Source: Candidatus Merdisoma merdipullorum
GTDB lineage: Bacteria; Bacillota; Clostridia; Lachnospirales; Lachnospiraceae
Direction: 5' to 3'
Assembly: GCA_018715645.1 (NCBI GenBank)
Contig: DVLE01000084.1
Span: 1-64,000, forward strand
Length of the DNA: 64,000 nt
Part shown: in pieces, positions 9,916 to 47,184 of the stretch
How the letters are laid out: each line of letters opens with the position of its first letter
Position numbering within the stretch: the stretch's first letter is position 1
Notes under the pieces: model-generated
Databases searched by the model: none
What the model was told of the DNA's origin: nothing
The model's input: only the letters and a program-made list of their open reading frames with translations
Position numbers and translations under genes: made by a program

Positions 9916-12405
9916 ATGGTAAGAATCGGAATGTTTTTAGGAGACCGCTATGAGATCCTGGAGAAGATAGGCTCCGGCGGCATGGCTCAGGTCTTTAAGG
10001 GAAAGGACCACAAGCTGAACCGTTTTGTGGCGGTCAAGGTACTGAAGGATGAGTTTGTGGAGGATAAGAATTTCGTCCGCAAGTTCAAGGAGGAGGCCCA
10101 GGCGGCCGCGGCTCTGGCTCATCCGAATATTGTGAATGTCTATGACGTAGGCGATGAGCAGAATATCAACTACATTGTCATGGAGCTGGTAGAAGGCATC
10201 ACGCTTAAGACGTATATCGAAAAAAAGGGCAGGCTGACGGTGAAAGAAGCCACCAGCATTGCCATTCAGGTGGCCTCCGGTCTGGAGATTGCGCACAATA
10301 ATCAGATTGTGCACAGAGACATCAAGCCGCAGAATATCATTATTTCCCGTGAAGGCAAGGTTAAGGTGACGGACTTCGGAATTGCGAAATCCGTTTCTTC
10401 CAATACAAATACGGCGGACGCCATGGGATCCGTGCATTATACGTCTCCGGAGCAGGCCAGAGGCGGATACAGCGATGCCAAGAGCGATATTTATTCTCTT
10501 GGCATTGTGATGTATGAGATGGTGACGGGACGTGTGCCGTTTGATGGCGAGACGACCGTTGTGGTGGCCGTGAAGCATCTGCAGGAGGACATTGTGTCTC
10601 CGCGGGTATATGCTTCCGACATTCCGGTCAGCCTGGAACACATTATTCTGAAATGTACGGAAAAGAGTCCGGATCGCCGTTATCCCAATGTGACGGAGCT
10701 GATCGCGGATCTGAAGCAGTCCCTGCTCACACCGGACGTAAATTTTGTAAAGGAAATCGTGCCGGACGGCGCCAAGACCGTGGCGATTACCAGGGATGAG
10801 ATTTCCAAGATCAAAAAGGAGACGGGAAGACTTCCCGTGGATGAGGACGATGCTGAGAGCAGGTACGCATACCTCGATCGTATGAATGATGACGACGAGT
10901 ATGACGACGACGAATACGATGACGAGTACGACGATGATGACGAATACGATGAGTATGATGACGACGAATATGACGATGAGTACGATGATGAGGAAGAATC
11001 GGACGATGAGGAGGACGATGACGACGAAGGAGGCGTGCTGGATCCGAAGCTGGAAAAAATCATGATGATCGGCGGTATCGCCGCAGCCGTTATTATCCTG
11101 ATCATTGTAATCGTGATCGTAGTAAGACTCGTGGGATTCGGAGGAGGCTCGAACAACAGCAGCAGCGACAACGAGCCAGAGATCGAAGATGTGATTGAGG
11201 AAAATCCGGTGGTTCCGGATCTTCTGGGAATGAGCTATTCAGAAGCCCAGGAGGCGCTGAACGAGCTGGGACTTGGAATCAAGGTCAGCGAGACCCGTTC
11301 CTCGGATGAATATGAGGCAGGCCAGATCATCGAGCAGAGCGTCGACAAGGGAACTGAGGTGGAGCCGAATACGACCATATATGTGGTGATCTGCGGAGAC
11401 GGCTCCAGCGTGGAGGTGCCGGATCTGGAGGATTATACAAGGGAGAGCGCGGTCAGCGCCCTTGAAAACCTGGGGCTCAGCGCAGATGTGACAGAGGAAT
11501 ATAATGACGACGTGGCCTCCGGCCGAGTGATTTCTACCAGCCCGAAAGCAGGCGAGAGCGTGGAGCGCGGAGGAGTCGTTAAAATCGTGATCAGTAAGGG
11601 CAGCGAGGAGGACGCCCAGGTTCAGGTTCCGGATCTGAGGAATAGAAGCGAGGCGACGGCGAAACAGCTTCTGAGCCAGGCGGAATTGAGTTCCGGCACA
11701 GTGACGACCGAAGCCAGCGATACGGTAGCGTCAGGAAATGTTATCTCCCAGAGTCCCTCAGCGGGAACTACGGTAGAGAAGGGTACGAGCGTCAGCTACG
11801 TGGTCAGCACGGGACCGGATACCGTATATATTGGAAACGCTATGAAGAACGGCAGCAGTGAAAGCGCTGTCACCGCTTACCTGACAGGCAGAGGGCTGAA
11901 GGTATCGCGTTCGGAGGAGTACAGCGACACAGTGGCTAAAGGCGATGTGATTTCCTACAATCCGGGCAATGGAAGCACGGTGGAGTATGGAAGCACGGTC
12001 AATATTGTGGTGAGTCTGGGACGGGAGCCTGTGACTACAGCCTCTGTACCGGATTTGACAGGAAGAACAGCGGATCAGGCCAGAAGCGCGCTGGGTTCCA
12101 ATTTCAGTCTGGGAGAAGTACAGAACGGAGACGAGGCTCCGGATTATACAAAGAATGGATTGATTTACTGGCAGAGCCATTCCGGCACGCAGCAGATAGG
12201 AACGACGATTTCCGTAAGAATCTATTCCAATATCCGCAGCTGTACGGATAAAGGAAAAGAGCATACAGCTCCGTCTGGTACCGGAGAGGGCGTGTCCACA
12301 ACCTGCACAGTGTGCGGAAGAACCTTCACGACTCCGACCACCTCGACGCCTACGACGCCAAGTGACGGTACAGGCAGTACATCCGGCGGCAACGCTGCCA
12401 CCTAA
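9916..12405 (+). CDS. prkC: Serine/threonine protein kinase with PASTA repeats (PrkC/PknB)
   Basis: GSGGMAQVFKG, HRDIKPQNI, DFGIAKS; Asp/Glu/Tyr-rich linker; TM segment; several PASTA repeats. Confidence 0.95.
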   Translation: MVRIGMFLGDRYEILEKIGSGGMAQVFKGKDHKLNRFVAVKVLKDEFVEDKNFVRKFKEEAQAAAALAHPNIVNVYDVGDEQNINYIVMELVEGITLKTYIEKKGRLTVKEATSIAIQVASGLEIAHNNQIVHRDIKPQNIIISREGKVKVTDFGIAKSVSSNTNTADAMGSVHYTSPEQARGGYSDAKSDIYSLGIVMYEMVTGRVPFDGETTVVVAVKHLQEDIVSPRVYASDIPVSLEHIILKCTEKSPDRRYPNVTELIADLKQSLLTPDVNFVKEIVPDGAKTVAITRDEISKIKKETGRLPVDEDDAESRYAYLDRMNDDDEYDDDEYDDEYDDDDEYDEYDDDEYDDEYDDEEESDDEEDDDDEGGVLDPKLEKIMMIGGIAAAVIILIIVIVIVVRLVGFGGGSNNSSSDNEPEIEDVIEENPVVPDLLGMSYSEAQEALNELGLGIKVSETRSSDEYEAGQIIEQSVDKGTEVEPNTTIYVVICGDGSSVEVPDLEDYTRESAVSALENLGLSADVTEEYNDDVASGRVISTSPKAGESVERGGVVKIVISKGSEEDAQVQVPDLRNRSEATAKQLLSQAELSSGTVTTEASDTVASGNVISQSPSAGTTVEKGTSVSYVVSTGPDTVYIGNAMKNGSSESAVTAYLTGRGLKVSRSEEYSDTVAKGDVISYNPGNGSTVEYGSTVNIVVSLGREPVTTASVPDLTGRTADQARSALGSNFSLGEVQNGDEAPDYTKNGLIYWQSHSGTQQIGTTISVRIYSNIRSCTDKGKEHTAPSGTGEGVSTTCTVCGRTFTTPTTSTPTTPSDGTGSTSGGNAAT

Positions 12406-33872: not shown

Positions 33873-33877
33873 AATAT

Positions 33878-33920
33878 AAGAGGTGGTTCTGGGGAGGTTC
33901 CTCAGAGCTGCCTCTTTTTA
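33878..33920 (+). terminator. Rho-independent terminator after recJ
   Basis: aagaggtggttct…agagctgcctctt (13 bp allowing GU) followed by tttta. Confidence 0.7.
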
Positions 33921-33976
33921 TCCATAATTGACAAGGGCATACTCAGTCAGAGTGGCTTTTGCCTGACCTATAGCGG

Positions 33977-34771
33977 TTAAAGCAAATACCTGGACACAAG
34001 TCTTTTTATCAGTCTGGTGTCCAGAATGGTTTTTTCTGTTTCAAAGGTCAGGATCAGCCGCTCTCCGGGAAAAATGCCGTTATCTTCATAGGCCAGAATT
34101 TTTTTGACTGCATTCTGCGCATAGCCGGGATCGTCCATTCTGCCGTCATGCTCCCAGTAAATCTCGGATCCAGACTTTTTTGACAGAAAAGTAAAATCAG
34201 GATGGACTGTCCCGAAGCCCTTCAGATGCAAGGGACGCTCGTATTTATAGGGAATCCCGTTCTGATGAAAATAATCTGCTAATATCTTTTCGGATTTTGA
34301 ACGAACTCTCTCCCCTCTTTCAGTCAAAATAACGGGAATATCTTCCCGAAATTCCTTTTGGATATAATCCTTTTCTTCCCATGCGGCCAATCGCTGAGCC
34401 CAGGTTGGCTCCGCCGGCTGAATCAGCTTTTGTTTTTCGGGGTTCTCTTTCAGGTAAATTTGTTCCAGCTCCTCGTCTTCATATTCTCTTGTGAGTATCC
34501 GAAGCTGTGAGAGTCTTCTCTGAACAAGCTTTAAGACTTTTTCGTCATAGGATTTTTGAGCAAGTTCACGAATCAGCCCTTCTTTGTTTTTGGGAATATA
34601 GGTTCCATTCCTTCGTCCGCCCGGCGTGCAATGATAATATTGAGTCCATTTTCCGCTGGAAGATATACGCAGCCTACCCTGCGGGACATCTTTTAATTGT
34701 TCGGTTGTCTTTTGAAGTATATGCTCTAGTCTGGCCTGCTCCTGGAGCAGCATTTCTTTTAATGTTGTCAT
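33977..34771 (-). CDS. Hypothetical protein with PD-(D/E)XK nuclease-like C-terminal domain
   Basis: RSKSEKILADYFHQNGIPYKYERPL…HPDFTFL…EIYWEHDG; ATG at 34771 with AGGAGG (cctcct on + strand). Confidence 0.65.
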   Translation of the reverse strand: MTTLKEMLLQEQARLEHILQKTTEQLKDVPQGRLRISSSGKWTQYYHCTPGGRRNGTYIPKNKEGLIRELAQKSYDEKVLKLVQRRLSQLRILTREYEDEELEQIYLKENPEKQKLIQPAEPTWAQRLAAWEEKDYIQKEFREDIPVILTERGERVRSKSEKILADYFHQNGIPYKYERPLHLKGFGTVHPDFTFLSKKSGSEIYWEHDGRMDDPGYAQNAVKKILAYEDNGIFPGERLILTFETEKTILDTRLIKRLVSRYLL

Positions 34772-34814
34772 ATAATACCTCCTTTTTAACAAGAATTGTT
34801 GAATTTCCAGTCTC

Positions 34815-35017
34815 CTACGGATACAAATCCGAAATTCGGTCTAAACATCCGTAGAAAATCGTCGGAGTCTACGGATGCAAATCCGGGCATCCAGTGGAAA
34901 CATCGGTAGGAAATCGCCGGAATCTACGGATGCAAATCCGGAAACCTGACAAATCATCTGTAGAGAACCGCCAGAATCTACGGATACAGATTTGGAATCT
35001 CGTCGAACTATCCGTAG
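34815..35017 (+). repeat. Tandem palindromic repeat array A: 4 units, 54-55 nt period
   Basis: CTACGGAT at 34815, 34869, 34924, 34978, each closed by ATCCGTAG or a near variant. Confidence 0.92.
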
Positions 35018-35281
35018 AACCTGTTTTTTGTGTTGTATAAGTGGAATACTGGCTGCTGAAGGTAGGAGACAGCCGCAGATTTGTTTGAAAGTCCCTGGAA
35101 ATGGATGCTTCCGGACTGAAAAAAAGTTGACATAATTTATTATACGTCACTTTTCCGAGAAAGTCCATCGCTATTCGATTCGACGCAGCAGGAGTGACGT
35201 CGGAGAGAGACGATGGGGTTGGCCGCAGACTGGATCGCTTGGACTGTTGTCCTTCGCCCGCCCCGTGTTTTACGCAAAATC

Positions 35282-35310
35282 TTGTCAAATACGCCCTTTC
35301 ATGCTATAAT
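35282..35310 (+). promoter_or_regulatory. Sigma-A type promoter for apt
   Basis: TTGTCA (35282-35287), 17-nt spacer, TATAAT (35305-35310) with TGC extended -10. Confidence 0.75.
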
Positions 35311-35399
35311 GTGCGCGTATGCAATGAGCCGTGCGGGGGCGTGACGGCTTATTTGGCGGGGAAAAGTTACAAAACCTTAGAAAAGGGGAATGATAGATG

Positions 35400-35924
35400 A
35401 TGAAGAAGCTTGAAGATTATGTAAGAAGCATCCCGGATTTTCCGGAGGAAGGAATCATTTTCAGAGACATCACCTCAGTGCTGCAGGACGCAGACGGTCT
35501 GCAGCTTGCGATTGATTCCATGCAGGATTTGCTGAAAGACGTGGATTTTGACGTGGTGGTGGGTACGGAGTCCAGAGGTTTTGTTCTGGGAACCCCGATT
35601 GCCTACAATCTGCATAAGCCCTTTGTGCTGGTGCGTAAGCAGGGAAAGCTGCCCTGCGAGACCGTGTCGAAGGAGTATGATCTTGAGTACGGCAGCGCCG
35701 TAATTGAGATGCACAAGGATTCCATCAAGCCGGGACAGAAGGTTGTGCTGGTGGACGATCTGATCGCGACGGGAGGAACGATTCAGGCAGCAGCGGAGCT
35801 GGTGGAGGAGCTTGGCGGAGAAGTGGTAAAGATTATTTTCCTGATGGAGCTGGCAGGGCTGAAGGGGCGGGAGCGTCTGAAAAAGTACGACGTGGCCTCT
35901 GTGATCTGCTATGAGGGAAAATAG
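35400..35924 (+). CDS. apt: Adenine phosphoribosyltransferase
   Basis: IPDFPEEGIIFRDIT, VLVDDLIATGGT. Start could be 35397 or 35400. Confidence 0.95.
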   Translation: MKKLEDYVRSIPDFPEEGIIFRDITSVLQDADGLQLAIDSMQDLLKDVDFDVVVGTESRGFVLGTPIAYNLHKPFVLVRKQGKLPCETVSKEYDLEYGSAVIEMHKDSIKPGQKVVLVDDLIATGGTIQAAAELVEELGGEVVKIIFLMELAGLKGRERLKKYDVASVICYEGK

Positions 35925-36008
35925 ACGATAGAGAGATTTACGTATGCGGCGCTTTGCGGACAGAGGGGAACGAAAAGCCGACGATGAAGCAAAAGGCAGG
36001 TGTTGACA

Positions 36009-38315
36009 ATGGCAGATATGAAGATTGGCGTAAAAAACCGGGATATGGAAGTAAATCGGGATGACGAGAACGTAAAGGCCATGCAGGACTTTACGAGTCC
36101 GGATGTGCTTTACAAGGAGCTGATCAACAGTGTGCTTAAGTATCATCCGTCTACCGACATCAGCATGATTGAGAAGGCTTACCGGATCGCTTCTGAGGCC
36201 CATCAGGGGCAGATGCGCAAATCAGGCGAGCCGTATATCATTCATCCGCTCTGTGTGGCGATCATTCTGGCGGATCTGGAGCTTGACAAAGAGACGATAG
36301 TTGCGGGACTTCTGCATGACGCGGTGGAAGATACCGTGATGACGACGGACGAGATCGCTCAGGAGTTTGGCGACGAGGTGGCGCTTCTGGTGGACGGCGT
36401 CACAAAGCTGGGCCAGTTGTCCTATTCGGCGGATAAGATAGAGATCCAGGCGGAGAATCTGCGAAAGATGTTCCTTGCCATGGCGAAGGACATCCGCGTA
36501 ATTCTGATTAAGCTGGCCGACCGCCTTCACAATATGCGTACCCTTCAGTACATGAAGCCGGAGAAGCAGAAGGAGAAGGCCAGGGAGACCATGGACATCT
36601 ACGCGCCGATTGCGCAGAGGCTTGGTATCTCCAAAGTGAAAAATGAGCTGGATGATTTGTCTCTGAAGTATCTGGAACCGGAGGTTTACTATGACCTGAA
36701 GGAACAGATTTCAGAGAAGCGCAGCGTCCGGGAGGCCTTCGTTCAGAGTATTGTGGACGAGGTCAAGAAGCACATGGAAAATGCGGGAATTGAGGCCCAT
36801 GTGGACGGACGTGTAAAGCACTTTTTCAGCATCTATAAGAAAATGGTAAACCAGCATAAGACGCTGGATCAGATATACGATCTGTTCGCGGTCCGCATCA
36901 TCGTGGAGACGGTCAAGGACTGTTACGCGGCCCTGGGCGTGATCCATGAGATGTATAAGCCGATTCCGGGACGTTTTAAGGACTATATCGCGATGCCGAA
37001 GGCAAATATGTATCAGTCCCTTCATACGACGCTGATAGGTCCCAACGGCCAGCCTTTTGAGATTCAGATCCGGACTTATGAAATGCACAAGACCGCGGAA
37101 TACGGTATCGCGGCTCACTGGAAATATAAGGAGAGCAGCGACGGCAAGAAGCCCGTGGATCAGCAGGAAGCAGAGAAGATGACCTGGCTGCGTCAGATTC
37201 TGGAATGGCAGCGGGATATGTCTGACAACAGAGAGTTCATGAATCTGCTGAAAAGCGATTTGGACCTGTTTTCCGAAAGCGTCTACTGCTTTACGCCGAC
37301 GGGAGATGTGAAGACGCTTCCCAGCGGTTCTACCCCCATCGATTTCGCCTACAGCGTACACAGCGCCGTGGGCAACAGGATGATTGGCGCCAGGGTGAAT
37401 GGAAAGCTGGTGACGATCGACTATAAGATTCAAAACGGCGATCGGATTGAAATCATTACTTCTCAGAATTCCAGAGGACCGAGCCGTGACTGGCTGAATG
37501 TGGTAAAGAGTACCCAGGCCAAGAACAAGATCAATCAGTGGTTCAAGAACCAGTTTAAGGAAGAAAATATATTAAAGGGCAAGGAGATGCTTGCGCAGTA
37601 CTGCAAGCTGAAATCCATAAATATGCCCAGCGTCCTAAAGCCTGAGTATCAGAACGCGGTAATGCGTAAATATGGCTTTAAGGACTGGGATTCCGTGCTT
37701 GCGGCCATCGGTCATGGAGGCCTGAAGGAAGGTCAGGTCATCAACAAGATGGTGGAGGAGTACGAGAAGATCCACAAGAAAGAGATCACCGACGAAAAGG
37801 TTATGGAGGCGGTGACGGAGAATAAGAACAACAAGCTCAAGCTTGCCAAGTCCAAGAGCGGTATCGTTGTAAAGGGACTGACGGATGTGTCCGTGCGGTT
37901 TTCCAAGTGCTGCAACCCGGTTCCCGGCGACGAGATCGTAGGCTTTGTGACAAGGGGACGGGGCGTGTCCATTCACCGTACCGACTGCATCAATGTGATC
38001 AATCTGCAGGAGTCAGAGCGGCAAAGGCTCATCGACGCGGAGTGGCAGGATGTGGGCCAGTCGTCCTCCAAGGAAAAGTACGCCACGGAGATCAAGATTT
38101 ATGCCAATAACCGCACTGGTCTTCTGGTGGATATTTCCCGTATTTTCACAGAGCGGGGCATCGATATGACGAGCATGAACGTGAGGACCAGCAAGCAGGG
38201 AACCGCGACGATCTCCATCACCTTCGACATTGGAGGCAAAGAGGAGCTGCAGAGGATTGCGGAAAAGCTGTATCAGGTGGAGAGCGTACTGGATGTGGAG
38301 CGCGCCACAGGCTGA
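36009..38315 (+). CDS. relA: Bifunctional (p)ppGpp synthetase/hydrolase RelA/SpoT
   Basis: HD domain (GLLHDAVEDT), synthetase, TGS (VYCFTPTGDVKTLPSGSTPIDFAY) and ACT domains. Upstream GTG at 36000 is an alternative start. Confidence 0.95.
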   Translation: MADMKIGVKNRDMEVNRDDENVKAMQDFTSPDVLYKELINSVLKYHPSTDISMIEKAYRIASEAHQGQMRKSGEPYIIHPLCVAIILADLELDKETIVAGLLHDAVEDTVMTTDEIAQEFGDEVALLVDGVTKLGQLSYSADKIEIQAENLRKMFLAMAKDIRVILIKLADRLHNMRTLQYMKPEKQKEKARETMDIYAPIAQRLGISKVKNELDDLSLKYLEPEVYYDLKEQISEKRSVREAFVQSIVDEVKKHMENAGIEAHVDGRVKHFFSIYKKMVNQHKTLDQIYDLFAVRIIVETVKDCYAALGVIHEMYKPIPGRFKDYIAMPKANMYQSLHTTLIGPNGQPFEIQIRTYEMHKTAEYGIAAHWKYKESSDGKKPVDQQEAEKMTWLRQILEWQRDMSDNREFMNLLKSDLDLFSESVYCFTPTGDVKTLPSGSTPIDFAYSVHSAVGNRMIGARVNGKLVTIDYKIQNGDRIEIITSQNSRGPSRDWLNVVKSTQAKNKINQWFKNQFKEENILKGKEMLAQYCKLKSINMPSVLKPEYQNAVMRKYGFKDWDSVLAAIGHGGLKEGQVINKMVEEYEKIHKKEITDEKVMEAVTENKNNKLKLAKSKSGIVVKGLTDVSVRFSKCCNPVPGDEIVGFVTRGRGVSIHRTDCINVINLQESERQRLIDAEWQDVGQSSSKEKYATEIKIYANNRTGLLVDISRIFTERGIDMTSMNVRTSKQGTATISITFDIGGKEELQRIAEKLYQVESVLDVERATG

Positions 38316-38380
38316 CCGTGAGGCTGCGCGTTCTGTGAGGCGAGAAAAAGGCATACCCGGCGCGGCGGCAGGAGGTTGAT

Positions 38381-39013
38381 ATGAAAGTAGAGAGTATGGT
38401 TTTGGGCGCGGTGGCGACCAACTGCTATTTTTTGATAAATGAAGAAACGAAGGAGACCATCGTTGTGGATCCGGCTGACAGTCCGGATGTGATCCTGAAA
38501 AAAGCCGCGGACGAGGGGCTTGCGTTGAAAGCTGTGTTCCTGACTCACGGCCACGGCGATCACATCATGGCTGTACAGGCGCTGCGGGAAAGAACGGGAA
38601 TCCCGGTCTATGCCTGCAAAGCGGAGGAGGAGCTTTTGGCGGATCCGAACCGGAATCTGTCCGCGGCTCTCTTTGGAAAGCCGGTTTCTCTGAAGGCAGA
38701 TATGCTGATAGAGGATGGGAAAGAGCTTCTTGTGGCCGGAATGAAGTTCCAGATGCTTGCCACGCCGGGACATACGCCGGGCGGCTGCTGCTATTACAAT
38801 GAGGAGGCGGGTGTTCTGCTTTCCGGCGACACATTGTTCTGCGGCTCTGTGGGCCGGACGGATTTTCCGGGCGGAAGCATGGGAACGCTGGTGCGCTCCA
38901 TAGAGGAAAAGCTGATGACGCTTCCTGATGAAACCAGGGTTTATCCGGGCCACCAGGAGGAGACGACCATCGGCGCGGAGCGACGCTATAATCCATACTT
39001 AAGAGGCGTTTGA
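38381..39013 (+). CDS. MBL-fold metallo-hydrolase (glyoxalase II-like)
   Basis: THGHGDHI, GHTPGG, SGDTLF, PGHQEETTI. Confidence 0.93.
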   Translation: MKVESMVLGAVATNCYFLINEETKETIVVDPADSPDVILKKAADEGLALKAVFLTHGHGDHIMAVQALRERTGIPVYACKAEEELLADPNRNLSAALFGKPVSLKADMLIEDGKELLVAGMKFQMLATPGHTPGGCCYYNEEAGVLLSGDTLFCGSVGRTDFPGGSMGTLVRSIEEKLMTLPDETRVYPGHQEETTIGAERRYNPYLRGV

Positions 39014-39014
39014 T

Positions 39015-40481
39015 ATGATTGAGGTTAAGATAAATGACGAGAGCTTCGCGTACGACATCCATTCCCTGATTCAGGCGTTCTATCCGGGAGTGGAGGTGCA
39101 AGTCCGTCAGAAGGACACATTTACAGAAGACACGCCCCTGAAAATGGAGGCGTCTGTGGATGATAAGGAAATCAGCTTTTCCCTCTGGGAAGACGGGGCC
39201 TTTCAGCGGAAAGGCCATATTTATGTACAGGATGCGGACAGAAAGGCAGTCAAAAATCAGCTTAAGAAGCTGCTGTACCGGGAGCTGTGCGCTTTTACCG
39301 GGAAGACGCTGCCCTGGGGGACGCTGACAGGGATCCGCCCCGTAAAGATTCCGATGGCGATGCTGGAGGAGGGCAAATCAAATCTTGAGATCGCCCGCTA
39401 TATGTGGGAGACCTACGACTGCAGCAAGGAAAAGGCTGCCCTCGCTATCTCCATTGCAAACCAGGAGAGGGAGGTCTTAAAGGGACTCGATTACGAAAAC
39501 GGATACAGCCTCTATGTGGGGATTCCCTTCTGTCCAAGCATCTGTCTGTACTGTTCTTTTTCCTCCTCCCCCATCAAGCTCTGGGAAAAGCGGATTGAGG
39601 ACTATCTGGAAGCCCTCTTTTTGGAGCTTGCTTTTCTGGGAAGGGCTTATGCGGGACGAAAGCTGAATACTGTGTATGTGGGCGGCGGCACGCCTACGAC
39701 GCTGAACGCTTCTCAGCTTGACAGGCTGCTGTCCTGCATTGAGGAAAATTTTGATCTTCGTTATCTGCGGGAGCTGACCGTGGAAGCCGGACGTCCCGAC
39801 AGTGTAACGCCTGAAAAGCTGCGCGCCCTGAAGGCGCACCGGGTGACGAGGATTTCTGTGAATCCTCAGACGATGAATCAGAAAACCCTGGATCTGATAG
39901 GAAGAAAGCATACGACGGAACAGACGAAGGAAGCCTTTCACATGGCAAGAGAGGAAGGCTTTGACAATATCAATATGGACCTGATCGTAGGACTGCCGGG
40001 CGAGGGGATCGAGGACGTGCGCCACACAATGGAGGAGCTGCGTCTTCTTGATCCGGACAGCATCACCGTCCATTCTCTGGCGGTCAAGAGAGCTGCGAGG
40101 CTGAAGCTTTTTCGGGATACCTACGAAGAAATGGGATTCCAGAACAGCCAGGAGATCATGGATCTCACTTACCGGTACTGTGTGGAGCAGGGCGCTTATC
40201 CCTATTACCTGTACCGTCAGAAAAATATGGCAGGCAACTTTGAAAATGTGGGCTACGCCAAGGTTGACAAAGCGGGAATTTACAATATACTGATTATGGA
40301 AGAAAAACAGACGATTCTGGCTGCAGGAGCAGGAGGATCTTCCAAATTTGTCTTTGCCGCCGATCACATTGAGCGTGTGGAGAACGTCAAGGATGTGACG
40401 CAGTATATCGGCCGTATCGACGAGATGATCGGGCGCAAACGAAGCTTTATGGAAGCCCATGGTCTTTGGAAAGAGAGTTAG
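39015..40481 (+). CDS. hemZ: Oxygen-independent coproporphyrinogen dehydrogenase-like HemZ
   Basis: GIPFCPSICLYCSF radical SAM motif, VGGGTPTTL, N-terminal extension typical of HemZ. Confidence 0.88.
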   Translation: MIEVKINDESFAYDIHSLIQAFYPGVEVQVRQKDTFTEDTPLKMEASVDDKEISFSLWEDGAFQRKGHIYVQDADRKAVKNQLKKLLYRELCAFTGKTLPWGTLTGIRPVKIPMAMLEEGKSNLEIARYMWETYDCSKEKAALAISIANQEREVLKGLDYENGYSLYVGIPFCPSICLYCSFSSSPIKLWEKRIEDYLEALFLELAFLGRAYAGRKLNTVYVGGGTPTTLNASQLDRLLSCIEENFDLRYLRELTVEAGRPDSVTPEKLRALKAHRVTRISVNPQTMNQKTLDLIGRKHTTEQTKEAFHMAREEGFDNINMDLIVGLPGEGIEDVRHTMEELRLLDPDSITVHSLAVKRAARLKLFRDTYEEMGFQNSQEIMDLTYRYCVEQGAYPYYLYRQKNMAGNFENVGYAKVDKAGIYNILIMEEKQTILAAGAGGSSKFVFAADHIERVENVKDVTQYIGRIDEMIGRKRSFMEAHGLWKES

Positions 40482-40489
40482 AGGCAGGA

Positions 40490-41098
40490 ATGGACAAAGC
40501 GACACCCCTTTCCTTTTTTGAGGAGGATATTACAGAAGAAATCAATCATGGAATCCGGGTAAGCAACCTGGCTTATTATGTGGCGAAAAGTCTGGGACTT
40601 TATGAAAACCAATGTCATGCCCTGGCCGTGGCGGGCATGGTCCATGATATAGGAAAGCTGCGGGTGTCCGCCTATCTGTATGGACGTCATGAGGACACAC
40701 TGAAGATAGAGGAAATGAAATACGTGCGGATGCACCCAAGACTGGGCTACGAGCTGTTGATGCGCCATGACTATTCAGATTTTATCGTGGAAAGCATTTT
40801 GTATCACCATGAGAATTACGACGGCTCAGGATACCCGGAGAACCTGGCAGGACCGCAGATTCCCCTGGGAGCGAGAATCCTGAGAGTCTGCGACGTGTAT
40901 GCGGCCCTGACGTCGGATCGCCCTTACCGAAAGGCATTTGATCCGGAGACAGCCGTGGAACTGATGATTGAGGAAGTAAAAAATTTTGATATGAAAGTAT
41001 TTCTGGCCTTCCAGAGAACGATTCACGAGGAGGAACTTCAGCAGAAATGGGAGATTCCGCATATGAAGGTTAGGATTACAGAGGAGGAGACGATATGA
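40490..41098 (+). CDS. HD-GYP-like phosphohydrolase
   Basis: [41 protein letters not shown]. Likely ATG 40490. Confidence 0.88.
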
Positions 41099-42336
41099 TT
41101 ACACAGGCTCCAAGAGGAGTGGAAGACTGGTACGGCGAGCGGATGTACAGGCGCGCCTGGGTGGAACGTCAGGCGAGAGAACTGGCCCGCACCTACAATA
41201 TGACAGAGATCATTACGCCGATGTTTGAGCATACGGTCCTGTTTCAGAGAGGCGTAGGCGAGACCACGGACGTGGTTCAGAAGGAGATGTATACCTTCAC
41301 GGACAAAGGAGACAGAAGCATTACGCTGAAGCCGGAAGGCACGGCGGGAACCATGCGCGCTTATCTGGAGCATAATATGTACGCCAATCCGGCGCCTACG
41401 AAGCTTTACTACGTGACGCAGGCGTTCCGGTATGAGAAGCCCCAGAGTGGGCGTCTCCGCCAGCATCACCAGTTCGGCGTGGAGTTTGTGGGCTCTAAGA
41501 GTCCTCTGGCGGAAGTGGAAGTGATTTCCCTGGCAGCTGCCCTTATCCGGAAGCTGGGACTGAAAGATATAAAGCTTCATATCAACAGCATCGGCTGTCC
41601 GAACTGCAAGAAGGATTACAATGACGCCCTGCTTGCCTATCTGAGAAAGCATGAGGAACACTTATGCCCTACTTGCCGGGAAAGGATGCAGAAGAATCCC
41701 ATGCGCGTCATCGACTGCAAGGTTCCGGAGTGTAAGGAGATTATCAAGGACGCGCCCCGGACCATCGATTATTTGGACGAGGAGTGCCGCACGCATTTCG
41801 AGGAGCTTCAGAAGCTTCTGACCGAGCTGGAGATACCGTTTGAGGTGGATACGGGAATTGTCCGCGGTCTGGACTATTATACGAAGACTGTGTTTGAGTT
41901 TGTGAACTCCGAAGGCTTCACCCTCTGCGGAGGAGGACGTTACGACGGGCTGATCCATGAGATCGACGAGAAGCACGACATTCCCTCCGTGGGCTTTGGT
42001 ATGGGAATCGAAAGAATTCTCTATTTCCTGGAAAAAGAGGGAGTAGAGCTTCCTGCTATGGAGACGCCGGATCTCTATGTGGGAATCCTGGGCGCCGACG
42101 CAAGAGCGAAAGCGTATAAGCTGGTAAATGAGATCCGCGGTCACGGCCTGATCGTGGAGACGGATTACATGGACAGAAGCGTCAAGGCGCAGATGAAGTA
42201 TGCCAATAAGATTGGAGCCAAGAAGGTTGTGATTATCGGCGCGGACGAGCTTGAAAAAGGAACCGTCCAGGTAAAAGATATGGCGACCGGAGAGCAGACG
42301 GAGGCCAGACTTTCAGAGCTTGCGAGCCTGTTCTGA
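41095..42336 (+). CDS. hisS: Histidyl-tRNA synthetase
   Basis: [35 protein letters not shown]. Confidence 0.96.
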
Positions 42337-42380
42337 TGTCTGTGGTGTCCGTGTCAGATAGAATTAGGAGGAGAAAAGAG

Positions 42381-44147
42381 ATGTTTCAGTCAAGAACACA
42401 TACCTGCAATGAGCTTCGGCTCTCGGACGCAGGAAAGACCGTGACCATCGTAGGATGGTATGAGAACCTGCGTAAAGTCAGCAAGAACCTGGGATTTCTG
42501 ATTCTGCGCGATTTTTATGGAACCACCCAGGCCGTTATTGAAACGGAAGAAATGATGGCGAGGCTGTCAGGCGTAAATACAGAATCCACGCTGTCTATCA
42601 CAGGCGTGGTGCGCGAGCGTTCCAGCAAGAATCCGGCTCTGCCTACCGGAGTGATCGAGGTAGTTCCCACCGACATCCAGGTGCTTGGACGCTGCCGTTA
42701 CAATGAGCTGCCTTTTGAGATCAACCGCTCCAAGGAAGCGGACGAGAACACGAGATTGAAATACCGTTATCTGGATCTGCGGAATCCTGCGGTTAAGGAT
42801 CGCATCATCCTGCGCTGCAACGTGGTGGCGGAGCTTCGCAGGAGTATGACGGAGCATGGCTTCCTGGAGATTACCACACCGATTCTGACCTGTTCCTCTC
42901 CGGAGGGCGCGAGAGATTATCTGGTACCGTCCAGAAATCATCCGGGCAAGTTTTACGCTCTGCCCCAGGCGCCGCAGCAGTTTAAGCAGCTTTTGATGAC
43001 GTCAGGTTTTGACCGTTATTTCCAGATTGCTCCCTGCTTCCGCGACGAGGATGCGAGAGCGGACCGTTCTCCGGGAGAGTTTTATCAGCTTGATATGGAG
43101 ATGGCGTTCGCAAGCCAGGAGGATGTCTTTGCAGTTCTGGAGGACGTGCTTCCCCCGATCTTTGCGAAATATGGCGTCTATAAGACGGCGTCCAGTGCGC
43201 CCTTTAAGCGTATCTCTTATCATGACGCTATGGAGATTTACGGCTCCGACAAGCCGGATCTGAGAATTGACCTGACGCTTCAGGATGCCACGAAGGTCAT
43301 GGAAGGCTGCGGTTTCGGCCCGTTTGAGGGACAGACGGTCAAGGCTGTGGTATTCAGTGATTTTAAGGCAACCCGCAAAGTGATTGACAAGATCTGCGCC
43401 GACGTGGAGGTGCAGACCGGAAATAAAGCCTTCTGGTTCCGTCTCGATGAAAACGGCGAGCTGGTGGGCGGTATCTCGAAATTCCTGGCGGATCGGAAGG
43501 AAGCTGTGATCGAAGCTCTGTCCTTGAAGCCCGGTGATTTTGTAGGACTGGCAGCAGGAAAGAAGCTGGCTGCGCAGAAGACAGCAGGCGTGCTTCGCAA
43601 GGTCCTTGGCAATACGGTGGAAGGCCATATGAACAAGGAGTGCTATGAGTTCTGCTGGATCGTAGACTTCCCGATGTATGAGATCGGAGAGGAGTCCGGT
43701 CAGCTTGAGTTCTGCCACAATCCGTTCTCGATGCCCCAGGGAGGCATGAAGGATCTGCTGGAAAAGGATCCGCTGGACATCTACGCATATCAGTACGATC
43801 TGGTCTGCAACGGCGTAGAGCTGTCCTCCGGAGCTGTTCGTAACCACGATCCGGAGATTATGGTGAAGGCTTTTGAGATCGTAGGACTGGGCGAGGAGGA
43901 TGTGAAGGCTAAGTTCCCCGCCATGTACAACGCATTCTGCTATGGAGCTCCGCCTCACGCAGGCATCGCTCCGGGCGTGGACCGTATGGTTATGCTCATC
44001 GCAGGCGAGGAGAGCATTCGTGAGATCATCCCGTTCCCGATGAACAAGACGGCTCAGGATGTCATGATGGGCGCTCCGGCGGAGGTAGATCCCCAGCAGC
44101 TCAAAGACGTGCATATTCAGGTAGTCATGCCGCAGGCCAATAGCTGA
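42381..44147 (+). CDS. aspS: Aspartyl-tRNA synthetase
   Basis: RTHTCNELRLSDAGKTVTIVGWY, FRDEDARADRSPGEFYQLDMEM, GIAPGVDRMVMLI; ATG 42381 after TTAGGAGGAG. Confidence 0.95.
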   Translation: MFQSRTHTCNELRLSDAGKTVTIVGWYENLRKVSKNLGFLILRDFYGTTQAVIETEEMMARLSGVNTESTLSITGVVRERSSKNPALPTGVIEVVPTDIQVLGRCRYNELPFEINRSKEADENTRLKYRYLDLRNPAVKDRIILRCNVVAELRRSMTEHGFLEITTPILTCSSPEGARDYLVPSRNHPGKFYALPQAPQQFKQLLMTSGFDRYFQIAPCFRDEDARADRSPGEFYQLDMEMAFASQEDVFAVLEDVLPPIFAKYGVYKTASSAPFKRISYHDAMEIYGSDKPDLRIDLTLQDATKVMEGCGFGPFEGQTVKAVVFSDFKATRKVIDKICADVEVQTGNKAFWFRLDENGELVGGISKFLADRKEAVIEALSLKPGDFVGLAAGKKLAAQKTAGVLRKVLGNTVEGHMNKECYEFCWIVDFPMYEIGEESGQLEFCHNPFSMPQGGMKDLLEKDPLDIYAYQYDLVCNGVELSSGAVRNHDPEIMVKAFEIVGLGEEDVKAKFPAMYNAFCYGAPPHAGIAPGVDRMVMLIAGEESIREIIPFPMNKTAQDVMMGAPAEVDPQQLKDVHIQVVMPQANS

Positions 44148-44164
44148 CACTGATTCAGAAAAAA

Positions 44165-44200
44165 TATCGCCCCATCATCAGCTTCGATGATGGGGCGATA
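44165..44200. terminator. Bidirectional terminator between aspS and the convergent small gene
   Basis: tatcgccccatcatc-agcttc-gatgatggggcgata, perfect 15-bp stem flanked by A-run and CTTTAA. Confidence 0.85.
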
Positions 44201-44202
44201 CT

Positions 44203-44451
44203 TTAATCCAATCGCTCGCCGCAATTATGACAGATGCTCTGCGACGCCCAACGAAAATTCAACAACTTTTTACAGTGCGGACATCGTAAGAAGATGAACC
44301 CAAAAACAAGATCACCGATCAAAAGAAACGTCGCGCCGGCAATGATTTCCCGCCGGACAAAGGCTAAGGCGGGAATATTGGATAAGAGGCATAGGCCTAT
44401 TCCCACGACGGCAATTCCGTTGAGTATATTTCTGCATTTCCTTGGCTTCAT
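44203..44451 (-). CDS. Small membrane protein with C-terminal zinc ribbon
   Basis: Two hydrophobic segments, then RCPHCKKLLNFRWASQSICHNCGERLD. Confidence 0.7.
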   Translation of the reverse strand: MKPRKCRNILNGIAVVGIGLCLLSNIPALAFVRREIIAGATFLLIGDLVFGFIFLRCPHCKKLLNFRWASQSICHNCGERLD

Positions 44452-44710
44452 TTCAACCTCCAGCGCAATACGGATTCTATGTTCTTTTCTCTGTTTGCCC
44501 TTATCAATTAAGGTACCCTTGTCAATTTAGAATAGAATACACTGGTATTGTTAAAAATAGCGTGGCGGCAATGTAAAATATTTGTAAATAAGGCTTTGTT
44601 TTAAACCTGTTCCAGCCATTGTTTGATAAAGTAAAGGGCGCTGCCGATGGCAGGAGCCAGAGGACCATGCTGTCCTGCGGCCATTACTTTTTGAAGTAAT
44701 CAGCCCCGGC

Positions 44711-45022
44711 CTACGGATAAAAAGCCAGAAATCGCGGATAGTATCCGTAGAAATGAGCTTTAGTCTACGGATAAAAAAGCCGGAAATCGCGTGTTGCATC
44801 CGTAGAAATCGACACCAGCCTACGGATAGAAAACCGAAAATCCCAGATTGTATCCGTAGAAATCGACACCAGCCTACGGATAAAAAGCCGGAAATCCCCG
44901 ATAGCATCCGTAGAAATAGGCCTTAGTCTACGGATAAAAAAGCCGGAAATCGCGTGTTGCATCCGTAGAAATGGGCCTTAGTCTACGGATAGAAAGCCGA
45001 AAATCCCCGATAGTATCCGTAG
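44711..45022 (+). repeat. Tandem palindromic repeat array B: 6 units, 54-55 nt period
   Basis: CTACGGAT at 44711, 44765, 44820, 44874, 44928, 44983, each closed by ATCCGTAG; last stem ends 45022. Confidence 0.95.
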
Positions 45023-45359: not shown

Positions 45360-46874
45360 ATGTTGTATTATCTCGGAATCGATAACGGAGGGACGGCTAC
45401 CAAAGCGGCTGTCTTTGATGAAAACGGACGGGAGCTTGCCTGCGCCGGAACGGATACGGTCATGCTGGTTCCTGAGCCTGGATTTACGGAACGTGATATG
45501 GAGGAAATGTGGGAAGCCAACTGCCGGGTGATCCGCGAGGCGCTTGAAAAGGCGGGAGTCTCCGGGAAGGAGATTGCCTGCGTGGCAGTCTGCGGACACG
45601 GCAAAGGGCTGTATCTTTGGGGAAAGGACGGAAAACCTGTCCGGAACGGAATTATTTCTACAGATAACCGTGCCTTGAGCTATCCGCAGAAATGGAAGCA
45701 GGACGGAACGGAAGAAAAGGTGTTTGCGCGCTCCTGTCAGCATATCCTGAGCAGCCAGCCAGTCTCTCTGCTTGCCTGGCTGAAGGATCATGAGCCGGAG
45801 ACACTGGAAAGAACCCGCTGGATCTTTGCCTGCAAGGATTATGTCAGGTTCCGGCTGACCGGAGAGGCCTATGGAGAGCGTACGGATTATTCCGGCTGCA
45901 ATCTGGTCAATCTTCATACGGGGGAGTATGACGAGGAGCTTTTGGCGCTGTTCGGCCTTTCCGAATGCAGGGACAAGCTGCCGCCGCTCAGGCTTTCGAC
46001 GGATGTCTGCGGCCATGTCACCAGGGAGGCAGCAGAAAGGACCGGGCTGAAAGAGGGAACCCCCGTGGCCGGAGGAGCCTTTGATATTGACGCCTGCGCG
46101 CTGGCTGTGGGAATCACCGATGAGGAGCATCTGTGCATGATTGCAGGGACCTGGAGCATCAATGAGTATATTGCCAGAGAACCAGTGCTGGACGGAAGCG
46201 TCATGATGAATTCTTTTTACTGTCTGCCAGGTTATTATCTGGTGGAGGAGTGCAGTCCCACGTCGGCGGGCAACAACGAGTGGTTTGTGAAGACACTGCT
46301 GCCGGAGCTGCGTGAGGAATGCAGTAAGACAGGGAAAAGCATCTATGAATTGCTGAACGCCTGGGTGGAGGAGATTCCTGCGGAAGAACCCTGTCCTGTT
46401 TATCTGCCCTTTTTAATGGGAAGCAACGTGCATCCAAAGGCCGGCGGCAGCTTTGTGGGAATCAGTAACTATCATACCAGGAAGCACCTGCTGCGGAGTG
46501 TTTATGAGGGGGTAACCTTCTCGCACCGCTATCATCTGGAAAAGCTTCTGAAGACCAGAAAGGATGCGCCCAGGTCCATCCGGCTGGCGGGAGGGGCGGC
46601 CCGCTCCGCCGTGTGGACGCAGATGTTCGCGGATGTGATGAAGCTTCCAGTGGAATGCGTCGACGTTCGGGAGACGGGCGCCGCCGGCTGTGCCGTGATC
46701 TGTGCGGCGGCCTGCGGCGGTTCCGCGAATGTGGAGGAGGCCGTGAAGCGGATGTGCCGGGTGAAACCTCCGGTCTTTCCTGATCCGGCGAAGGCGGCAG
46801 TCTATGACAGGAAATACGAACGCTACTGCAGGACCATCGAGGCGCTTGATAAGGTGTGGGACGCTTACCCTTAA
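45360..46874 (+). CDS. FGGY-family carbohydrate kinase (xylulose-kinase-like)
   Basis: GIDNGGTATKAAVFD, GGAFDIDACALAVG, RLAGGAARSAVWTQMFADV. Confidence 0.92.
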   Translation: MLYYLGIDNGGTATKAAVFDENGRELACAGTDTVMLVPEPGFTERDMEEMWEANCRVIREALEKAGVSGKEIACVAVCGHGKGLYLWGKDGKPVRNGIISTDNRALSYPQKWKQDGTEEKVFARSCQHILSSQPVSLLAWLKDHEPETLERTRWIFACKDYVRFRLTGEAYGERTDYSGCNLVNLHTGEYDEELLALFGLSECRDKLPPLRLSTDVCGHVTREAAERTGLKEGTPVAGGAFDIDACALAVGITDEEHLCMIAGTWSINEYIAREPVLDGSVMMNSFYCLPGYYLVEECSPTSAGNNEWFVKTLLPELREECSKTGKSIYELLNAWVEEIPAEEPCPVYLPFLMGSNVHPKAGGSFVGISNYHTRKHLLRSVYEGVTFSHRYHLEKLLKTRKDAPRSIRLAGGAARSAVWTQMFADVMKLPVECVDVRETGAAGCAVICAAACGGSANVEEAVKRMCRVKPPVFPDPAKAAVYDRKYERYCRTIEALDKVWDAYP

Positions 46875-46918: not shown

Positions 46919-46939
46919 ATAGGGCGAAATCAGGATAAT

Positions 46940-47130
46940 AAGGAAAGCGGGAGAGTGCGCGCCGCAGGGCGCGAAAAAGGGAATCAGGTGAAAAACCTGA
47001 GCGATCCGGTCACTGTAAGCAGGAGATTCTGTCCGGGAGGCCATTGCGTGAAGTGCGTGAGAAGGCGGATGGAAGGAAGGCGTCGGTATGAGAAGCGACA
47101 TCGCCGGAAGCTGCGAGCCAGGAAACCTGC
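46940..47130 (+). ncRNA. Cobalamin (B12) riboswitch aptamer
   Basis: AAGGGAATCAGGTGAAAAACCTGAGCGATCCGGTCACTGTAAGCAGGAG and B12 box GAGCCAGGAAACCTGC, upstream of a B12 operon. Outer boundaries approximate. Confidence 0.9.
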
Positions 47131-47184
47131 TCTTTTGCTCTGTCTGGACAGGCTTCCGAGAAAAGCGGTTCCAAGGATGATTGT

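Follow-up and report, generated by a model that had tools for sequence, protein, structure and literature searches.

Arrays of paired inverted sites accompany a PD-(D/E)XK nuclease in Candidatus Merdisoma merdipullorum and other Lachnospiraceae: a candidate two-part system resembling REPtrons

Two tandem repeat arrays (A and B) and a nuclease gene adjoining array A were analysed in a 64,000-nucleotide stretch of Candidatus Merdisoma merdipullorum (assembly GCA_018715645.1, contig DVLE01000084.1, positions 1 to 64,000), hereafter the window. We consider it probable, with some reserve, that they belong to a two-part chromosomal system composed of a nuclease and arrays of its own sites, similar to the REPtrons but built on an unrelated enzyme. 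Nuclease genes and arrays are linked, the sites are specific to the lineage, the geometry is fixed and the repeat lengths are quantised in helical turns. The arrays are dispersed, the catalytic residues of the nuclease are intact, and the nuclease together with its array is absent from congeners. We infer from this that the nuclease binds the sites and cuts there, and that this cutting drives the dispersal of the arrays.

Arrays in the window and in the remaining genome

The units of both arrays have the layout CTACGGAT-N24(25)-ATCCGTAG, with inverted 8-bp half-sites, and are followed by a 14-nt linker without length variation; the interior measures 25 bp in three of the ten units and 24 bp in the rest. 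Exact measurement of the units thus bears out the common stem motif and linker described in an earlier note on this DNA. The 54/55-nt alternation given there holds in so far as both periods occur, but the period is 54 bp with an occasional 55, due to the extra interior base, and does not alternate strictly. Array A is located 43 bp upstream of the start codon of the gene for the nuclease of 264 amino acids (aa). Both arrays do lie between divergent genes, as had been noticed: the nuclease gene (minus strand) and apt (plus) in the case of array A, an 82-aa open reading frame from 44451 (minus) and a kinase gene at 45360 (plus) in the case of array B. The short open reading frames over the arrays are, as supposed, the repeat read as translation.

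A genome-wide search for the paired pattern returned 12 perfect copies and none for the reversed control; with up to three mismatches the counts were 61 and 8, respectively. Altogether 11 arrays with 52 units, four to six in each, are present on contigs C5, C11, C17, C19, C39, C60, C61 (A and B), C69, C81 and C93, against a single full-length nuclease. This number is a minimum, because the assembly is fragmented (97 contigs) and about 87% complete. Nine of the arrays, and the role of the minus-strand gene beside array A as their partner, had been missed in the earlier note, which would have given up its proposal had the repeat occurred at two loci only and in no relatives; the opposite is true, with 11 arrays in this genome and the system recurring elsewhere in the family. 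Placement between divergent genes does not hold throughout the genome, the arrays on C5, C17, C39 and C93 being flanked by co-directional genes. The genes flanking the arrays are unrelated to one another.

A second palindromic element, ATAATGTC-N4/5-GACATTAT, was seen about 50-260 bp from four of the 11 arrays (L119:764; L120:2800 and 2861; L121:3351 and 3459; L122:1644) and nowhere in the window. It is probably another dispersed repeat family.

Linkage of nuclease genes and arrays

Among all GTDB genome contigs the two-unit pattern was found in only two further records, both from Lachnospiraceae; one of them is Candidatus Fimousia, for which the family placement rests on the nuclease match. 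In one record (L014) the array immediately precedes the gene for a protein with 60% identity to the window nuclease, and the other belongs to a genome with four nuclease homologues. Homologues are encoded in 85 of 250 Lachnospiraceae genomes, with up to eight per genome, and full-length matches were confined to this family in the phylum-wide sample searched.

The region within 700 bp upstream was inspected at 91 loci, 83 of which had enough upstream sequence, and genes from the same loci served as control. A tandem array preceded 47 of the 83 nuclease genes compared to one of 62 control genes (Fisher p 4e-14), and what preceded this lone control gene was itself another such array. Arrays on the downstream side were scarcer (11 of 90). 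Contig ends fall within 700 bp of the gene in 13 cases on its 5' side and in one on its 3' side, an effect expected of repeats, and the linkage found is therefore too low. The nuclease loci have no further gene in common, the commonest neighbour family being present in seven of the 91.

The half-site sequences vary by lineage, e.g. GCGGTCAC, GTCCGTGC, TTTACTATGCC, GACACGCAAA and TTTTGTTCGC, and close relatives of the nuclease share cores: TACGG in the clade of the window nuclease, TGACC in L023, L026 and L031.

Repeat periods and conservation of the sites

The periods of the upstream arrays fall into three classes, 51-56, 61-64 and 73-75 bp, with none between, which correspond to 5, 6 or 7 turns of B-DNA. 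For a 10.5-bp helix at phase zero the V statistic reached 0.78-0.83 at 14, 23, 29 or 40 protein clusters, a value as high being obtained in none of 20,000 null draws, and the best-fitting helical repeat was 10.55 bp per turn. The period class agreed with the nuclease tree in 95-100% of cases above 50% identity, compared to 27% below 35%, and shifts by one or two turns are seen in several separate clades. Of all the results, this quantisation points most strongly to recognition of the units in double-stranded DNA, by a reader that requires them to be on the same face. A repeat length quantised in helical turns and kept across genera while the sequence changes is strong evidence of protein assembly on DNA, with the spacing under selection to the base pair.

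Conservation was measured on one consensus for each of the 11 arrays. Between arrays, identity was 95% at half-site positions and 51% in the interiors, in agreement with the divergence of interiors noticed before; among the units of one array it was 68-88%. The half-site consists of a CTACGG core and two looser bases, and in some arrays of this genome a variant (CTACGGAG, CTACGGAA or CTACGGTRC) occupies one side. Two further features stand out, an AAA immediately inward of the left half-site and a GA..T at the centre, which gives a footprint-like pattern. Sites conserved while interiors drift, together with the fixed spacing and the quantised periods, speak for the dispersed protein-binding element that was one of the roles proposed in the earlier note.

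Arrays dispersed in other genomes

Three unrelated genomes with differing site sequences (G233, G126 and G303) each carry nuclease-linked and dispersed arrays of identical geometry. G233 encodes one nuclease and has at least six arrays with GYACGGAC sites, further arrays being located on other contigs. Almost always, its sites are spaced 24 bp and then 13 bp. The window species has the same inner spacing (24 bp), though the two nucleases are 44% identical. G126 encodes seven nucleases; of its arrays, those with TACGCGCA (spaced 21 and then 27 bp, period 64 bp) occupy eight loci and those with TTTGTTCGC (period 74 bp) three, and each array family matches the cis array of one nuclease paralogue. 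In G303 each of four nucleases has its own array, and a distant array matches one of the four cis arrays. The reversed-pattern control gave no match in G233 or G126. Nearly all dispersed arrays begin and finish with a whole unit.

Additional tandem repeats of 40-45 bp were observed in G233 between the nuclease gene and its 53-bp array (L034:2323-2655).

The nuclease

No match to the nuclease was found in Pfam or NCBIfam. Its C-terminal half is similar to the C-terminal domain of PADLOC model PDC-S68 (E 3e-29; model positions 1089-1217 only). The AlphaFold2 model (pLDDT 94.9) gave weak but consistent Foldseek matches of the nuclease domain to DrdV, BamHI, Bax1, TnsA-like and DUF559 proteins. 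The restriction-endonuclease-like fold and the conserved acidic residues (E161, D192 and E207) place the protein in the PD-(D/E)XK superfamily; the canonical lysine is replaced, apparently by His208. In an alignment of 40 homologues, E161, D192, E207, H208 and E244 do not vary, which makes catalytic activity probable. Binding of DNA is presumably the task of the N-terminal domain. Standalone proteins of about 100 aa match this domain, and these have a match to DUF6788 (PF20586) below the cut-off (E 2.5e-4 to 1.5e-3).

If the predicted promoter of the nuclease gene (Table 1) is right, array A lies in the 5' untranslated region and is transcribed ahead of the nuclease, and binding to it would also repress the gene.

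The domains also occur in other contexts. Standalone relatives of the N-terminal domain are encoded at L194 (G000:C10:17901-18095, minus strand), L185, L186, L188, L189 and L193, and the protein at L190:1477-2178 (plus strand) combines the domain with a C-terminal region of another, unrecognised kind. In other Bacillota families, RecD-like helicases end in the same C-terminal PD-(D/E)XK domain (L172, L173 and L176).

Origin in the window species

The recJ and apt genes are adjacent in 13 congeners, while in the window species about 1.4 kb with the nuclease gene and array A lies between them. The end of recJ and the apt promoter (35276-35308) could be aligned on either side of the gap in seven congeners. 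The groEL-guaB array is likewise missing from congeners, and so is the repeat as a whole. The arrays are recent in this species. As regards a MITE or insertion sequence, empty sites are seen at recJ-apt and groEL-guaB, with flanks too diverged to give exact ends.

A plasmid or phage origin was considered and rejected. No full-length homologue of the nuclease was present in 72,556 plasmids, the phage collection yielded one 4.2-kb fecal contig with a homologue at 32% identity, and the repeat was not found in viral contigs.

Comparison with known systems

REPtrons are formed by REP/REPIN sequences and RAYT transposases (PMC3733652, PMC8049555). The present system acts like a REPtron: an enzyme gene has palindromic repeats beside it, palindromes of the same family are scattered through intergenic DNA, inheritance is chromosomal, and plasmids do not carry it. 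The enzyme that defines REPtrons is nevertheless a different one, since the repeats there accompany an HUH tyrosine transposase and here a PD-(D/E)XK nuclease, with no RAYT beside them. In addition, REPtron repeats are single-strand hairpins occurring as hundreds of singlets and doublets, whereas about 50 units in about ten long tandem arrays, with a helix-phased period and conserved half-sites, are found here. The GTAG or CGTC end on one side, typical of REPtron repeats, is not general either, as the units of the window species end in GTAG but those of G233, G126 and most others do not.

The palindromic element amplified by a host transposase, another role put forward in the earlier note, is accordingly upheld as to the dedicated enzyme gene and the many dispersed copies, but not as to the kind of enzyme. 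Mobilisation by a RAYT or IS200 transposase, for which a link to such a gene had been the check suggested, was rejected: the sole Y1 transposase found is an ordinary IS200-like gene on another contig (C85).

The candidate defence proteins PDC-S68 and PDC-S69 of PADLOC have a related C-terminal PD-(D/E)XK domain, but the PDC-S68 models are about 1200 aa long and other matches to that domain are large RecD-like helicase fusions; the nuclease described here, with 264 aa, a small N-terminal domain and an array, is no such multi-domain protein. DUF6788 is approached through the standalone relatives of the N-terminal domain, but the nuclease itself has no Pfam hit and DUF6788 has no known function. 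Tandem repeats of similar unit size beside a nuclease gene recall CRISPR, but CRISPR spacers are unique, whereas interiors and linkers here are near-copies within an array, the repeats recur at many loci and the periods follow helical turns; a CRISPR array was rejected on the first of these grounds. Regarding cas genes near the nuclease loci, for which no dedicated search was run, no neighbour family occurs in more than seven of the 91 loci. The ends of Tn7 carry phased arrays of TnsB sites that are used together with TnsA, a PD-(D/E)XK nuclease of the same superfold. Phased sites and such a nuclease are common to both, a viral TnsA-like protein being among the weak fold matches, but TnsB- or TnsC-like partners and paired ends are lacking here and the arrays are solitary. 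No methyltransferase or other conserved neighbour, as in restriction-modification, accompanies the nuclease. A search of open-access papers, with subscription papers and preprints outside its scope, gave no description of the system.

Proposed mechanism and alternative explanations

The first part of the system is a single-gene nuclease and the second a set of tandem arrays of paired inverted half-sites of 7-10 bp, with one array preceding the nuclease gene and several more located in intergenic DNA elsewhere. The cognate nuclease would bind at the half-sites, probably reading them by the sheet of its N-terminal domain, and spacing by whole turns would put the bound molecules on one face of the DNA and allow cooperative assembly. 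The nuclease domain may then act on array DNA, most likely by cutting between units, and repair of the cuts could lengthen and homogenise the arrays and seed them elsewhere over evolutionary time, much as REPINs are spread by RAYTs but via other chemistry. Cutting between units followed by repair would explain the whole-unit ends, the similarity within arrays and the dispersal. On balance the evidence favours a class of system that had not been described before: a sequence-specific nuclease co-evolving with arrays of its own sites that are phased on the helix. The site specificities would be many and independent, the unit length fixed at 5, 6 or 7 turns, and the complex of nuclease and arrays would behave as a self-propagating (or domesticated) chromosomal element.

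Several results weigh against this interpretation. At the threshold used, 36 of the 83 nuclease genes have no array. Over all pairs, shared 6-mers showed no overall correlation with protein identity (Mantel r 0.04, p 0.23), since sites are common to close relatives only; below about 60% identity the site sequence as a whole does not track the protein. The residue-44 'code' (Q44 and TACG sites, 12/31 vs 0/18) remains a lead only, since ancestry confounds it and it fails to reach significance on the arms. At the insertion boundaries, in flanks too diverged to define exact ends, neither a target duplication nor another trace of how the segments moved was seen. Finally, the conservation of dispersed arrays at their sites could mean a host function instead.

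Such a function is assumed if the arrays serve regulation or chromosome organisation and the nuclease has been domesticated as a DNA-binding regulator or a bridging protein. The conservation of sites at loci far apart, against drifting flanking bases, the phasing of units on the helix and the spacing held to the base pair over long stretches in G126 and G233 would suit this explanation. We regard it as unlikely, as the flanking genes are unrelated, the arrays are recent in the window species and a pure regulator would not need the five invariant residues.

A host-defence device is likewise unlikely. The arrays would here hold a reservoir of nuclease and also repress its gene, the enzyme being freed or activated against invading DNA, and the nearness of the catalytic domain to the PDC-S68/S69 candidates, the patchy distribution with several paralogues per genome and the position of the cis array at the 5' end of the gene agree with this. 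Ten dispersed arrays would however be superfluous for a reservoir, no partner defence gene is conserved beside the nuclease, and nothing yet links it to phage.

A multi-hairpin RNA had been a further proposal of the earlier note. That the arrays code for such a structured RNA, which the nuclease would process or use, is very doubtful. Single units of the window species fold better than shuffles (z -2.2 to -4.7) and the predicted promoter would transcribe array A. Among 44 aligned units, however, two-sided (compensatory) stem changes were absent, where shuffles led to an expectation of 1.6, several one-sided changes break the stem and paired cells are fewer than in shuffles. On this alignment it is the sequence of the units that is conserved and not their pairing, and stems without compensatory changes favour a binding array at the DNA level over RNA. 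Rfam also had no match over the array, and a period in helical turns would make no sense for RNA; the hairpin array was discarded on covariation and Rfam. Neutral tandem repeats produced by slippage, with an incidental link to the nuclease, would account for the similarity of units within one array but are scarcely credible given the half-sites conserved across arrays, the fixed spacing, the quantised periods and the upstream association, and the control comparison contradicts them.

The proposed system is common in a major gut family, being found in about a third of the genomes sampled. The protein belongs to no Pfam or NCBIfam family, and each lineage has a nuclease and its own apparent target sites. 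Since a single gene is involved, the rules of site recognition, the spread of intergenic repeats and the persistence of REP-like repeats become testable, and the many site specificities may supply new DNA-binding nucleases.

Features of the window

Table 1. Positions of the arrays, the nuclease gene and associated features in the window (a point stands for features given without strand)
Feature	Position	Strand	Remarks
Segment with nuclease gene and array A	33873..35275	.	Missing from the recJ-apt interval of the congeners compared
PD-(D/E)XK nuclease gene	33980..34771	-	264 aa; array partner; N-terminal domain of helix, 3-stranded sheet and long helix
Array A	34815..35017	.	4 units of 40-41 bp (half-site 8, interior 24/25, half-site 8), 14-bp linkers
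Array A, unit 1	34815..34854	.	CTACGGAT...ATCCGTAG
Array A, unit 2	34869..34909	.	41 bp; right half-site ATCGGTAG
Array A, unit 3	34924..34963	.	Right half-site ATCTGTAG
Array A, unit 4	34978..35017	.	
Predicted sigma-70-like promoter of the nuclease gene	35139..35167	-	10/12 consensus positions; consensus match only
Array B	44711..45022	.	6 units, 54/55-bp period; no adjoining nuclease gene

Two other elements were observed in the window. A short tandem repeat at 10886-11028, with GAT/GAC/GAA-rich units and periods of 15-54 bp, is probably an acidic coding repeat. A cobalamin riboswitch (Rfam RF00174, 91.5 bits) is located at 46936-47148 on the plus strand, and the genes downstream of it resemble those of cobalamin/tetrapyrrole synthesis.

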